A DNA stretch of 64,000 nt, from contig NC_133032.1 of assembly GCF_048771995.1 (NCBI RefSeq), forward strand, positions 24,949,501 to 25,013,500. The letters run 5' to 3'. The notes under the pieces are model-generated. The model was not told the DNA's origin. It was given only the letters and a program-made list of their open reading frames with translations, and did not search any database. Below are positions 30,401 to 36,327 of this stretch, piece after piece. The stretch's first letter is position 1; each line of letters starts with the position of its first letter. The position numbers were made by a program, and so were the translations under genes. The stretch is from Taeniopygia guttata. Lineage: Eukaryota; Chordata; Aves; Passeriformes; Estrildidae.

Positions 30401-30635
30401 TTACACTGAACTTAGAGAAATCTGTCAAAATTTCCAAAGATTTTGGCTGATATTCCCCATATTTCAAAAATCTCTTACAAGTAACCTTCTCTACTTGTTC
30501 CCCATGACCTCTGGCAGATTATGTCTTTCCTTCTATCACCTACAGAGCTACTTCTGTGGGAATCAATTTGGAAAAAACAATTAAAAACATTAGTACAAAA
30601 TTATCAACATTAGCCCAAAACAAACAGGACAGAGA

Positions 30636-30741
30636 TGCTGTAAGTGTAATGAACTTGGTCCCAAGGCAGAATGTGACAAGGACTTCGTGCAGCTCCTCCT
30701 CCACTATGTGCCCAGACTGTAAAGAACATTTTAAACACTGT
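30636..30741 (+). pseudogene. gag: gag nucleocapsid fragment (two degenerate zinc knuckles)
   Basis: Frame at 30636-30674 reads CCKCNELGPKAEC, a C-x2-C-x4-(H) pattern in which the histidine position is proline and the last spacing is one short. A second motif, CPDCKEHFKHC at 30709-30741, lies in a different frame. Two knuckles separated by roughly a dozen residues match betaretroviral nucleocapsid, which binds and packages genomic RNA. The frame change between them, the lost histidine and the shortened spacing show the gene is dead. Individually each motif is weak; the order relative to the downstream dUTPase-like segment is the main support. Confidence 0.5.
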
Positions 30742-30987
30742 CTGCACTTTCAGCATTTCCAGCAGGTCCAGCATCAGCCCTCTCAACAGCAGCACCAGGG
30801 AAACTTCCCGTGGACCCCAGGGTGGCACTGCGCAGAGACACCAAATGCCAAGCCATTCCATACCCCTTTCCCCGCCATCCTAGAAAGCCAGAGCACCAAG
30901 AGACCATCTGTGACATCTGGAGGAACAGCTGCAACTCTCTGAGCTCTACCAATACATTCAGGCAGGGACACGACGCACCCTGGTAAG

Positions 30988-31242
30988 CGTCCATTCCATA
31001 TCCAGCTGGAGGATAAGAAGATCTACAAAATTCCTACTGGTAAATTTGGACCCTCCGATGAACCAAGGAACATTTTAATCATAGGGGACTCTAGTATTGG
31101 ACTAGACCATCTGGAAGTATTGCCAGAAATCCAAACTGTGGGGCCAAGGGATGAAATTACTGTGACTGTCTCATGTGTACACCCATCACCCAAGCTTTCC
31201 TCCTACCCACCAGGACTGACATTTTACCAGAAAAACCTATAG
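30988..31242 (+). pseudogene. pro: pro-region dUTPase-like fragment
   Basis: An 85-codon stretch stays open to a TAG at 31240-31242. It contains KIPTGKFGP followed by NILIIGDSSIGLDHLEVLP, which matches the family's conserved turn and the motif normally read as G-R-S-S followed by a G-L...V-L-P strand. Retroviral dUTPases hydrolyse dUTP to keep uracil out of viral DNA, and in betaretroviruses they are fused upstream of protease in the pro frame. The arginine of the G-R-S-S motif is aspartate here, and the N-terminal part is not clearly present. No protease active-site triad is visible downstream, consistent with a deletion beginning soon after. Non-functional. Confidence 0.6.
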
Positions 31243-31289
31243 TCTTGTGGGCTGAGACTGTAGGTTCAGACAGAGCTCAACTCACTGAG

Positions 31290-31484
31290 AAACCGCCTGT
31301 GCTGATCAAAGACCCAGAATCCAAACAAATAGTAGGTCCATTTCCATTAGTAACGTGGGCAAGAGGCTATGCTTGCGTGTCCACAGAATCTGGCCCCAGG
31401 TAGATCCCCGGCAAGAACATCAAGCCGTTCATCCAATCACTAAGTGTAACTCTGAGAGACACTTCCCCAGAACCTCAGAAGCAA
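31290..31484 (+). pseudogene. pol: pol integrase C-terminal fragment
   Basis: The frame reads VLIKDPESKQIVGPFPLVTW and then ARGYACVSTESGPR before a TAG at 31401-31403, and remains recognisable to a TAA near 31482-31484. The pattern of a DPE-type turn, a W-x-R-G-Y-A-x-V-S-T core and a following basic tail is the DNA-binding C-terminal domain of ERVK/betaretroviral integrase. The in-frame amber codon interrupts the domain. The upstream catalytic core (D,D-35-E) and all reverse transcriptase are absent: dUTPase-like sequence lies only about 50 bases away. It cannot be functional. Confidence 0.75.
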
Positions 31485-31713
31485 TAAAGAGACCAAACTC
31501 GGGCAGCGTGGAGGAGGAGAAAGAAAAATACTAAAAATAAAAGTCCCTTACAGAAGAAGATGACTCACTGCTGCTCCTGAAAACAAAAGACTCTGTTGAA
31601 TTTTGTTCACTCATTGCTCACACTGTTACCCCCTCTGTGAGTGGCCTTAGATAGCTTCCCTGGGCAGTTGCTGTCAGGGTGCCTGTGGCACCAAGAGCAT
31701 CTCCACTCCGGCC
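31485..31713. other. Junction sequence between the two retroviral units
   Basis: This sequence lies between the plus-strand integrase fragment and the left end of the minus-strand LTR. It could be an envelope remnant of the plus-strand provirus, flanking DNA of the minus-strand unit, or both. I cannot assign it. The LTR end is taken at TGTGTCAGG (31714). Confidence 0.4.
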
Positions 31714-32162
31714 TGTGTCAGGAACTCCCCAGCCCACCAGACAATGTAATAAAAGCCAGAAGAACGAGAGGGCTCTGGGTAAAATCCAGCAAGGTTTACT
31801 AAGGAGAAATCTGAGGGTCCAGGCAGGGCAGGAGTGGGTAGAATCCAAGGAGGCAGCGTAGAAGCTCTGCTGAAGGGAACCGGAGGCAAAGAGCCAGGAC
31901 CAGGGCAGGGGTTAAGGTATATAACTGAGGGGAGGTGGAAAGAGTCAGGATACAAATCATCCAATGGGGAGAGGAGTCAGGGGAGGGGTTGGAGTGGGGT
32001 GACTTGACCTGTACCCCATGGGGAAGCAAGCAAAGAGTGGCTTTCCAGGGAAGACTAATGGGAGAACAGGGGATACAGTATTTTCTAGAACCAGGGAGTG
32101 AACGCCTGGTGACCGGCAACCATACATTTGCCTGAAAAAGCAAGGAATAATGGGAAGTTGCA
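31714..32162 (-). mobile_element. Minus-strand LTR, 3' of the PWWP3A copy
   Basis: On the minus strand this 449-bp segment starts TGCAACTTCC (at 32162) and ends GACACA (at 31714), the TG...CA of an LTR. It has a TATATA box (31918-31923), an AGTAAA hexamer (complement at 31795-31800) about 120 bases downstream, and roughly 80 bases of U5-like sequence. The upstream part is pyrimidine-rich with ATTGG/CATTAG boxes, as in avian ERVK U3. The retrocopy's stop codon lies 12 bases before its start. Its R and U5 regions differ from those of the LTR at 33577-34232, so the two are not simply the paired LTRs of one young provirus. No target-site duplication was found. Confidence 0.6.
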
Positions 32163-32174
32163 CCAACCTCTGTG

Positions 32175-33576
32175 TTAAATGATGTTGCTTTCTGCTGGCT
32201 CCGGCCCCATCTTGAGCTTTTTTCTTCCCAGGACTTGCTCCTCAAGCAGCTCTTTCTTTTGCTCACAGGTAGTCCTTTAATATACTGCTCTTTTGCCTTC
32301 TCATAATCAATGTCATCCACAGCAGCAACGGCACAGATGATAGCTTTAGGTAAAAAGCGCATTTGAGATGAATCTGATGCCATCCCCCAGGATCTGGTGT
32401 ACGTTCTTGGTGTCCACCTCCTTGTACACCTCCTTCAGGAACCCAAGCACCAGGTCCAGCTGTTCTTCATCCTCCAAATAAGCCTCCACACAGGTCATGT
32501 ACCAGCTGGAACTCAGGAATTTCTTCAGCCAGTGGGATTGTTTCCCACTTTTCAAGATCCCCAGGAGATGCTCTTCAGCCCCTTTGGTCTTCACTATGAA
32601 CTCCACCAGCTTCCTGTTCTCCCTATCCCTGGCAGCTCTGATCCTGTCAGGAAGAAGCCTCCTGGTGGGTTTCTGAGGGAAGTGTCTGAGGAAGACTGTC
32701 CATCACCTTCCTCCTTTGTGTTTGGGAATGCCATCTGCACCACACTCTGGTATCCCTCCTTCCTCACTGGGTAGCTGACATCAGCAGCAAAATACTCCAG
32801 GAAGGACCTGGTGAAAGAATGACAGCCCAGTCAGATCCGATAGTCCAGGATCAGCTGGAGGCACCACTTGGTTTCCCTGGAATAGTTCTCCTTGGCCCAT
32901 TCTATGATCTCCTGCTTCTCCTCACAGTCAAAGTGCTTCAGGCTCTTAGAGACACTGAGAAATCTTTTTTCTTATCATTTGCGGTGCCATCTATGAAGAG
33001 CACACAGGCCCTCCAGTGCTTCTTCTTCACTGCTTTCACCACAGCTGGCCAGTATGGACACCGCCGCAACTTGCACCACACCAACATCCTTTCCTCAAAG
33101 AATTTGGGTCCTCAATGGGGCAGAACACTTGGGACATTTTCCTCCTCTTCATCTGCCAGAGGTGAGAGTGTAGGGAGGCTCTCTGAGGAAACTCTTCTGG
33201 AAGACATCCCAGAGGGTTCCAGCCTTTCATCTTCCCCAGAGTCAGGGGCTTTATTCCCAGCCAGGTGTGAGGTGTCCTGGTTTTCCTCCTCCTGAGGCTG
33301 AGGGAAGGTACCAGAAGGCCCAGGCGAGGATCCAGGGTGGTTCCTCTTTGCAGCCTTGGGTTCTGACTTTTTAGAGCAAGAGCGCAACAAGAAGCCGTGG
33401 GAGGGGGTGGGTTGGGCAGATTTCTCCCAGGAAAATTTGGGATTTGGTCCTTCAGCAGTGCTGCTATGCCCACCTGAAGTCAAGTCAATTGGACTTGACC
33501 CGACCAGCTCTGGCACGGTTGGCTGCAGGGGACACTCCCTGTATATCCAGGAGATTTGGGGAGCAGCTAGGGTTTT
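32175..33576 (-). pseudogene. PWWP3A: PWWP3A (MUM1/EXPAND1) retropseudogene between LTRs
   Basis: Reading down the minus strand: a low-complexity charged region (33112-33576, with a 156-codon open frame, DEEEENVPSV near its end); a PWWP domain with MLVWCKLRRCPYWPAVVKAV then HWRACVLFIDGT (about 33100-32950); KSLKHFDCEEKQEIIEWAKE; FLEYFAADVSYPVRKEG; RAARDRENRKLVEFIVKTKG; and the helical C-terminus ending PKAIICAVAAVDDIDYEKAK and KELLEEQVLG, with a TAA at 32175-32177. This order matches PWWP3A, a nucleosome-binding DNA-damage-response protein. The parent gene is multi-exon; here no introns remain, so it came from mRNA. Lesions: TGA at 33112-33114 and 32831-32833 (both plausible CGA-to-TGA changes) and frameshifts near 32946, 32670, 32350 and 32270. 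No poly(A) or 3' UTR follows. PWWP3B is the alternative parent. Confidence 0.8.
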
Positions 33577-33657
33577 TGCCAACCCTGGGACAGAGGAGAG
33601 GCAACATCTGGGGAGGAGAATAAGAGGCTGACTCAGGACTGGCGTAACAGTCCAAGG

Positions 33658-33745
33658 TTTATTCCGGAGCTCTGGGGAGCTCTGCTCCTCAGGAAAATCA
33701 GCAGCCTGGGAAAGCGAGCTCCGGGCTCTCGCAACAGTTTATAAA
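33658..33745 (-). promoter_or_regulatory. LTR core promoter and polyadenylation signal
   Basis: TTTATAAA at 33738-33745 is a good TATA box for minus-strand transcription. AATAAA lies at 33663-33658 on the same strand. The interval between them would hold the transcription start and a short R region of about 50-60 bases. This would have driven transcription leftwards into the PWWP3A copy. Confidence 0.5.
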
Positions 33746-34044
33746 CAGGGATGGAAGGAAACGGGGAAGGGATCACCCACCACCCAATGAGGGGATTTGG
33801 GGGAGTGGAAGGTCCCCATCTTCCACTCTGACCCCACCAACAGACAGGTACACAGACCAATAGGGGAAGATTAAGGAAGGGACCCCTGGCCCTTGCGCAA
33901 TCACTTGATGCCCGGGGTAGAAGGTTCTGGAAGAGTGGGGTGGGGAGCTGAGTGATAGACAAGGCACCAGGGATGGGACAGGGGAATAACTTTGCACTTT
34001 TGGGTGATGGATATTGAGGGAAGAGGTGGGAAAACTTAAGGCAA

Positions 34045-34226
34045 ACCATTGGGGAAAAATGGGGGGTAAAGGGACAAACCATTAGAACAGGTACATAAAA
34101 CCATGAAAACACAATAAAAAAAAAAAAGAGGCTGGAAAACGGGGCAGACCATTGTGGGGAAATGGGGGTACAAGAAGGAACCATTACAAAACTGGTACAG
34201 AATCTTAAAACCTTAAAAACACAATA
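34045..34226 (-). repeat. Imperfect tandem duplication within the LTR U3
   Basis: Unit one (34148-34226) and unit two (34045-34116) both run, on the plus strand, from ACCATT plus a G-rich stretch, through a second ACCATT and GGTACA, to AAAACACAATA. The offset is about 103 bases, with an A-rich spacer of roughly 30 bases. Duplicated U3 segments commonly act as enhancers in retroviral LTRs. Their divergence from each other shows the duplication is old. Confidence 0.7.
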
Positions 34227-36327
34227 CAACACCTTAGGATTGTGGAGTGATAAAATCCCAGAAGTTCTGTAGCTATACAAGTTTTATGGGCTAAGATTGA
34301 GGAACTTTGAAACCAAGATGTGGATAGCAGGAACAGAGGTAAATTTACAAGCAGAATTATTCTGAGCTGTGGCTGTAACCTGCCTGACCTGAACAGCAAG
34401 ATGAATTTTACTTGAATTACACAAGCACAGGAGCACACATGCTACCAGTTCCTTCCAGAGTAATCCCTGACACCAACACACCCTGGCACATGAATCCCAG
34501 GCTGTTTGGTGAGGTACAAAGTAAATACAGCTGTCAGCTGTAAAGACAGTATTTTCTTGTGCTACCAGCAATTCTCTCTGGAAACTCTTCATGTAAATCT
34601 AGTGGTAGGAATCTGCTATTTACTAAATTCCAAAATATGCTACGAAAACAACAGCCTGTCTATGATAAAAACCTCAAAATGCAAAACTGTGAGGACATCT
34701 CCAGAAAGAGGAACTTTATTTTCCATATTTTATAATACTTTAACACAGGTGTTTTCAACAAGTCCTTAAGAAGTGACAGTATGATTTTGCAAAACTTTTG
34801 CAAGACAGGTTGGGTATTTCTCTGGTCAATGATGTTACTTTGGAAATAATTTTAGTTATAAATGTTGCTATTGTATATATAATTTCATTTGTTTTAAAAT
34901 GTAATGTTATATATTAAATAAGACATATAAGCTAAATATGCTAAATAGTCTAACAAGGAATTTGCATGCATGCAAAATTAAATTTATTACTGCAGTGTAA
35001 TTTTTAATTTAACAAGCAATGTCTACAAAAAAGAGTGACATCTATTGACAAGTTCCACATATCCATAGCGGCAGCATCTGTCTTGGTCATCTATGTTGAT
35101 CTAATGATCTAAGAAGGCACATTGGTCTTTTACAGTACACATTCTTAAAAATTATACATCTCTAATTTTAAACAGCTTGGATCCTTTATAAACAGAGACC
35201 AGTATGTTACTAAATGTGAACAAAAAATTCCCATACTGTAAAGACACAATTTTTCCAGATTGCAGGAAACCCCTTTTCCCATAATACTTTCAGATGAAAA
35301 GAAGATTTGGTGAAGGTCAGGCTAAGGCTAGGACTGATCACAACATTCTAAGTCAAATTTGGGGGTAGGGGTCTGCTATCATTGTCCGTCCCACTGGTGC
35401 ATGGATTACATTTGACTCCTCACACCATCCACCTTGTTTTCAGCAGGCACAGATGTCAGAGGGGAAGAAATGAAAAGTAGAGCACAATGAAAGTAAGGTG
35501 GCTTTCCAAAAGAAGTAAACTGTCAAAGGTATTAACTTTTCCTAACATTGCCTCTCCAAATTAGCAGCTGTGTATGGTTGCTGTAGGGACAGTGTGCAAT
35601 CAGGAACCCAGGAGACAGTGACTGTCTAGTCCCCAAGAGCCCAGAGGTGCCACAGTCAGGTGGGAGAATGGGGGCACAAAATTCCTTGACAAAGACACGT
35701 GCTGTGTCAGTGTTGGCAAGGAGCTGTGTTAGAACATTTCTCACGAGCTGGGAGTTACACACCTCACTGTGCCAGGACCAGAGCACTCAGTGTTCGGGGG
35801 ACACCTCACAGGGATGTGTAACACCGCTTAATTCCTGTCAAACCTACATCTATGATGTTAAAACAACAAGGGCTTCAGAAAGGACTATTGCTAAATTAAC
35901 TTTTAAGAAATGCAACAAAGTTCCTACAGAAAATACTGGACTAATTTTTGAATGAGTCATGACAGTCTGCTGAGGAACTAAAACATATTTTGTTTTCACA
36001 ACAGCACCTAGATACCATCCTGATTCTTAAACAGTCAGGGCACATGTTTGGATGAAGAGCAATCATAGTTGCATAGGGTATAGTAGTGTTTTCTGAGAAA
36101 AGAGAAATACCTTTTTTTTCCCTTCATTCTAATGTTCTTCAAGAATGACTCTCCTTCCAACAGCTTGATTTCAACAAAAAAGGTACTTTTTCTTTGGCTT
36201 GTTGGGCTCCCCCAGACCCCAGAAGGAAGGTAAGTCTACCTCTTTTTGAGTCATTAAATCTTTGTTTGAAATTTTTCTAATGGCCATGGCAAAGCTAAAA
36301 ATGGATTAGGTTATTTACCCCTTATTT

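Follow-up and report, generated by a model that had tools for sequence, protein, structure and literature searches.

The window analysed here, 64 000 nucleotides of the Taeniopygia guttata genome (C9:24949501-25013500), contains a real processed pseudogene of the host gene PWWP3A, at positions 32187-33458 on the minus strand, which keeps an informative junction with a long terminal repeat (LTR) of an endogenous retrovirus (ERV). The copy was made through an RNA intermediate, because the copied exons carry no introns; it is ordinary in kind, and it points to neither a working gene nor a mobile carrier. On the reading that we favour, to which we give about an even chance, it derives from an RNA that had been largely spliced, an ERV reverse transcriptase being the most likely means of copying; it entered the genome with a single LTR and received another LTR later. 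For relatives, the whole genome (1.14 Gb in 41 contigs) was searched. A first-pass annotation had placed at 31714-34232 a copy of PWWP3A lying between two LTR-like segments; the presence of these parts was borne out, but their borders required correction, the left-hand LTR (LTR2) occupying 31636-32192, the PWWP3A-derived DNA 32187-33458 and again 34232-34261, and the right-hand LTR (LTR1), in total, 33459-34231.

The PWWP3A pseudogene and its junction with the left-hand LTR

The parent gene is present in the same genome at C30:1519903-1526282. Comparison with orthologues (tblastn) showed that its three upstream coding exons begin near 1519903, 1520428 and 1520754; the fourth holds an internal Met (1521257), and the last coding position is 1526282. 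Codon numbers are counted here from that internal Met; the protein of Lonchura striata, which among the 137 proteins compared is the closest to this genome's own (95.1%), starts 78 residues earlier. Read from 33458 to 32187, the copy aligns to parental codons 32-651, reaching the base that immediately precedes the stop codon, with an identity of 91.0% (1157 of 1271 aligned bases; 82 transitions and 32 transversions). The earlier description of the minus-strand copy as intron-less, made from the window alone, holds against the parent: all nine introns of the copied part, each GT-AG, are missing at the exact joints, none being retained at a parental position, with the exception of 30 intronic bases that lie beyond LTR1.

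The PWWP and C-terminal domains that had been recognized in the copy were also recovered, its read-through matching the Pfam families PF20886 (PWP3A-B_C, E 8.9e-50) and PF20884 (MUM1-like_PWWP, E 1.1e-29), while the general PWWP model, PF00855, scored below its cut-off (22.9 vs 25.6 bits). When five open reading frames of the region were submitted separately, two exceeded the cut-off for PF20886 and each had, in addition, one match that fell below cut-off; another two gave no match, and the one on the viral side gave two matches, both below cut-off. A search for a solved structure found none.

The copy is dead, because two stop codons, a deletion of 582 nt and four indels (1 nt in three cases, 4 nt in the fourth) have accumulated in it; it has no intact reading frame, and its mismatches, distributed 43/24/47 over the three codon positions, are those of neutral-like decay. 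The deletion is a multiple of three, and its join (33341-33345, minus strand) unites two AGGAA motifs of one parental exon in a microhomology of five bases. Splicing was considered as its cause and rejected, as no placement of the join, examined by eye, gives GT-AG.

At its 3′ end the copy has neither a 3′ untranslated region (3′UTR) nor poly(A); it stops one base before the stop codon, and LTR2 follows. This LTR (31636-32192, minus strand) has an intact U5, with a clean CA end at 31636, and lacks about the first 43 bases of its U3. A genome search with window positions 31650-32260 returned 30 matches, among them the window itself and two to PWWP3A, and gave 27 LTR2 loci; the closest relatives are 81-84% identical over most of their length, and one is 88.6% identical over 255 bases. 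Flanks were inspected at 13 of the 27 loci. The head, about 43 bases that open with TGTGGGAG or a similar sequence, is present in 11 of the 13, the matches of the other two beginning further in; in the window the head is gone and PWWP3A occupies its place, so placed that LTR2 joins it directly before the stop codon. PWWP3A was found beside none of the 13.

The junction itself (32187-32193, minus strand) has a putative ancestral microhomology of seven bases, GGAAAGC, which is common to a second PWWP3A retrocopy elsewhere in the genome (L033), taken as a stand-in for the PWWP3A sequence, and to all six of the LTR2 relatives examined for it, which were drawn from the 11 that possess a head; the window now has A in place of the first G. 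When 200 000 random joins were made over a 20-kb parental stretch, 0.13% reached seven bases, 0.8% reached five and 2.2% reached four, the microhomology junctions having been picked first and this test applied to them afterwards.

Two LTR2 relatives are surrounded by 6-base duplications (by eye), GACACC at L038 and GAAAAG at L039. In the window, the spot expected for such a duplication beside the U5 end of LTR2 (31630-31635, plus strand) reads CCCCTC, for which inspection by eye found no partner at 34232 or at 34262, and no target-site duplication was found.

The right-hand LTR and its nesting in PWWP3A DNA

LTR1 consists of a near-complete main body (33459-34122, minus strand), whose 3′ CA end abuts PWWP3A directly, preceded by an extra LTR head of about 109 bases (34123-34231, minus strand). 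The extra head matches the same single head of L016, L019 and L030 as does the head of the body, and is either a tandem duplication of U3 or a piece of a second LTR of the family. Relatives of LTR1 were found at 16 loci, the best being 77% identical over 663 aligned columns; at ungapped positions, LTR1 and L016 are 86% identical (516/600). Flanks were inspected at 13 of these loci. Nine of the 13 relatives align to the very last base of LTR1, after which PWWP3A begins in the window, and one of the nine (L027) continues after the LTR end with a sequence that we take to be primer-binding-site-like. After the CA end of LTR1, inspection by eye revealed neither such a sequence nor a leader, PWWP3A following at once, and PWWP3A was absent beside all 13 relatives. 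Splicing that would have linked an LTR leader to an exon was considered and rejected, because the junction falls within an exon.

The first-pass annotation rightly recognized the two same-strand segments as LTRs, and each has relatives in the genome. However, the LTR-flanked unit that it proposed is not supported. We reject LTR1 and LTR2 as a pair, since they have separate relatives, since the whole of LTR1 used as a query found nothing in LTR2 at E 1e-3, and since their alignments, which covered most but not all of each LTR, did not rise above 100 shuffles (39 and 33, with shuffle maxima of 43 and 35, respectively); nor does any repeat of at least 60 bases link them. Judged from these comparisons, they are members of two different families. 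Around the copy we found no matching LTR pair, no target-site duplication and no primer-binding-site-like sequence. The suggestion that an LTR-PWWP3A unit might recur in the genome likewise gained no support: no second copy of the junction was found in searches that score the best candidates, and among the 13 inspected LTR2 relatives 11 have a normal head and two do not reach it.

Beyond LTR1 lie the 30 bases already mentioned (34232-34261, minus strand), which form the 5′ end of the PWWP3A-derived unit and match 29/30 to intronic positions C30:1520310-1520339 of the parent. Their 28-base core occurs at exactly two sites of the genome with three mismatches or fewer, namely the window and the parent (a control with the core read backwards gave 0), and 636,138 fetched positions, overlaps included, gave no other site with fewer than nine mismatches. 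The stretch had first been taken for the tail of a CR1 element, but a common repeat was rejected because the core is present only twice. PWWP3A-derived DNA is thus found on both sides of LTR1, which is nested within it. After the 30 bases the parent reads CTGCTC, and after LTR1 the window reads CTGCTGAAGG; the two PWWP3A pieces were probably joined near the common CTGC before LTR1 arrived.

Origin of the copy

Retroviral involvement in making the copy is the most likely reading, because the 7-base microhomology junction lies inside LTR2. The course of events that we favour would have begun in an ERV particle, where a growing complementary DNA (cDNA) would have copied the U5, the R and most of the U3 of an LTR2-type RNA, and would then have changed template at GGAAAGC, moving to a PWWP3A RNA packaged in the same particle, at a point directly in front of the stop codon. 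Further jumps would have taken place at AGGAA and CTGC, and the cDNA would have ended in intronic leader sequence of the PWWP3A RNA. Insertion of this one-LTR cDNA into an older ERV may have made use of the intact U5 end, the opposite end being closed with no second LTR and at the cost of some target DNA. LTR1, as a solo LTR from a different family, would have landed in the copy at a later time, and the copy would have decayed since. In favour of this, the U5 end of LTR2 is clean, unrelated DNA adjoins the unit at its other end, and the sense-orientation LTR2 is without the stretch 5′ of the junction that 11 of the 13 inspected relatives keep. More tentatively, and as something we rate a little short of an even chance, the locus might be described as the fossil of a failed retroviral gene capture, comprising a switch in U3 onto a partly spliced PWWP3A RNA, two more jumps and an insertion by the U5 end only. 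PWWP3A RNA may have been a repeated substrate, because a second, separate retrocopy is present on another contig.

Several observations weigh against this course of events. The seven bases of the junction depend on L033 as a stand-in for the ancestral end of the mRNA, and today's parent shares only three of them. The CTGC join, which has to be read across LTR1, comprises only four bases, a length within the reach of 2.2% of random joins. No target duplication flanks LTR1 (its two sides read CTAAGG and CTGCTG), so that its simple later insertion is not proved; at L004, its nearest relative, there is a possible duplication two bases beyond the LTR end. The 30 intronic bases would require a putative RNA with unspliced or alternative 5′ sequence. 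A switch inside U3 loses the polypurine tract; no normal two-LTR provirus would therefore result, and an abnormal insertion is needed. Furthermore, the same junction could be given by end-joining of a PWWP3A cDNA with an LTR2 already in the genome.

The main rival takes up this last point. A PWWP3A cDNA, made by any reverse transcriptase, would have been captured where a solo LTR2 already in place had suffered a double-strand break, or would have been brought up to such an LTR by deletion; the join would have formed at the 7-base microhomology, and both the head of LTR2 and the remainder of the older ERV would have been lost. A clean U5 end inside the older ERV is what a pre-existing solo LTR would give, end-joining likewise uses microhomology, target DNA is lost at the other end of the unit, and the older ERV has a deletion of its own with a 7-base overlap, which indicates that such joins occur at the locus. 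However, the orientation of LTR2, the nearness of the junction to the start of U3 and the absent 3′UTR would all have to be coincidences, and CR1, the main avian long interspersed element (LINE), is described in the relevant part of PMC8232201 as generally unable to make retrocopies, so that the source of the cDNA may have been an ERV in any case. We regard this rival as a serious possibility, yet on the whole a doubtful one.

Two further explanations have far less to commend them. In standard LTR-mediated retroposition PWWP3A would lie between the 5′ and the 3′ LTR of one element, and a sense-orientation LTR is indeed found on each side of a copy without introns, 3′UTR or poly(A), with microhomology at one junction. 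We nevertheless consider it very unlikely, given that the LTRs are of different families, that LTR1 is nested in PWWP3A DNA and abuts an exon with no leader seen, that no target duplication was found, and that PWWP3A does not accompany any of the 13 + 13 inspected relatives. Processed pseudogenes of the L1 or LINE type are intron-less and 5′ incomplete, and possess poly(A), a 3′UTR and a target duplication. The window copy is likewise intron-less, 5′ incomplete and degraded, but it has no poly(A) or 3′UTR, no target duplication was seen, and it shows an internal jump of 582 nt and a 3′ end that lies inside an LTR at a microhomology; an origin of this type (by CR1 or another LINE), beside LTRs unrelated to it, therefore seems very unlikely. 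In its favour stands the second copy, L033, which includes the 3′UTR as far as the polyadenylation signal, a feature to be expected of LINE-type copies, and carries the seven bases AAAAAAT at both ends, a weak candidate duplication of low complexity.

In oncogene-type retroviral transduction, a host coding sequence is fused to retroviral sequence. The window copy resembles it in this fusion, but no two-LTR unit is present, no packaging leader was seen and no further copy of the junction was found; transduction of this type is mentioned in the part of PMC4997597 that concerns us. The same paper cites Linial (1987), where a processed pseudogene arose from infection with a retrovirus, as well as patch repair that makes use of fortuitous microhomology; both are precedents for the reading that we favour. 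In the Linial case, as presented there, cellular RNA was packaged by a mutant of Rous sarcoma virus and copied to DNA, which fits a copy without a normal provirus; that was, however, an experiment with a marker gene, whereas we are dealing with an ancient germline copy joined to an LTR, for which the mechanism is inferred. LTR-mediated retrocopies (Tan et al. 2016, as cited in PMC8232201, PMC5408686 and PMC8854603) are like the present case in that a host mRNA is joined to an LTR element at microhomology, which in the window is true of the LTR2 junction but not of the 5′ junction. In those accounts they are LTR-flanked, whereas here a single LTR with a truncated head forms the junction and the other LTR is nested and of another family. 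They are reported for chicken among others in the relevant passage of PMC5408686, and one LTR-mediated retrogene on the parrot neo-W is given in that of PMC8854603.

Few retrocopies have been reported from birds, which is ascribed to CR1 seldom making them, and each readable junction therefore informs on origin; for chicken, 78 retrocopies were counted according to the section concerned of PMC3136929. In the literature we found no bird PWWP3A retrocopy under the name PWWP3A, the older name MUM1 having been looked for only in PMC6523648 (0 occurrences). The window copy has kept its junction to a defined stretch of an LTR and can be placed in a tree of PWWP3A. The locus also advises caution, in that same-strand LTRs around a host gene may be of different families and their nesting may be visible only from the whole genome.

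Age, related sequences and the neighbouring ERV

To place the copy among bird sequences, it was put in a tree together with the parent and with 35 PWWP3A proteins of birds, which we chose from the 120 that were listed among 369 found; the tree used 419 columns. The parent groups with Lonchura striata and Chloebia, and the copy splits off later than Pyrgilauda (Passeridae) but earlier than Anomalospiza (Viduidae). The two branches beside the copy have ultrafast bootstrap values of 97 and 98, while the place of Pyrgilauda among other Passerida has only 58. An origin in the present species only was rejected, because the copy branches before Viduidae. Our best estimate, for a copy that forms a long branch, is that it arose on the stem of Estrildidae and Viduidae. 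The deepest split of Estrildidae is put at 10 million years in PMC6523648; because of this date and the position in the tree, the copy should be older than 10 million years and should be common to Estrildidae.

In the genome search, with the best candidates scored, the last exon and 3′UTR of PWWP3A matched only the parent, L033 and the window; as these parental sequences were the query, the search covered copies that include the 3′ part of PWWP3A. L033 (C1:93480138-93481388) is 5′-truncated, has the last exons joined and shares no junction with the window copy. An LTR-like insert, about 0.5 kb long, interrupts its 3′UTR; by eye, the start of this insert resembles the LTR with which L067 ends. 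In addition, a DNA-level fragment (L036 6076-6375; C30:1481076-1481375), part of which is a repeat, lies upstream of PWWP3A at a distance of about 40 kb and has 74% identity to one PWWP3A exon and its flanking intron.

On the far side of the unit, the flanking DNA (34262-35600, no strand assigned) matched only itself in the genome at E 0.001, a search insensitive to short matches, in which the 30-base PWWP3A match was not shown either. The older ERV does not resume there, and a simple insertion of the unit into this neighbour was rejected for that reason.

The fragment of the older ERV occupies at least 30611-31635 on the plus strand, opposite to that of LTR2, which interrupts it at 31635/31636. 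A query of 30600-31650 gave 40 matches in the genome, and two other copies, in which the continuation was read, extend past the point where the window fragment stops. Compared with three other copies, the fragment is without 2.6 to 5.1 kb at 31271-31277: the two blocks of the query (up to 678 and from 672) lie 2.6, 2.7 and 5.1 kb apart in copies on contigs C41, C40 and C41, respectively. The blocks overlap by seven bases at this internal deletion, a style of join like that in the PWWP3A copy. The 40 listed ERV matches are mostly on C41 (23/40) and C40 (6/40), which, from the sizes of these contigs, we guess to be the W and Z sex chromosomes.

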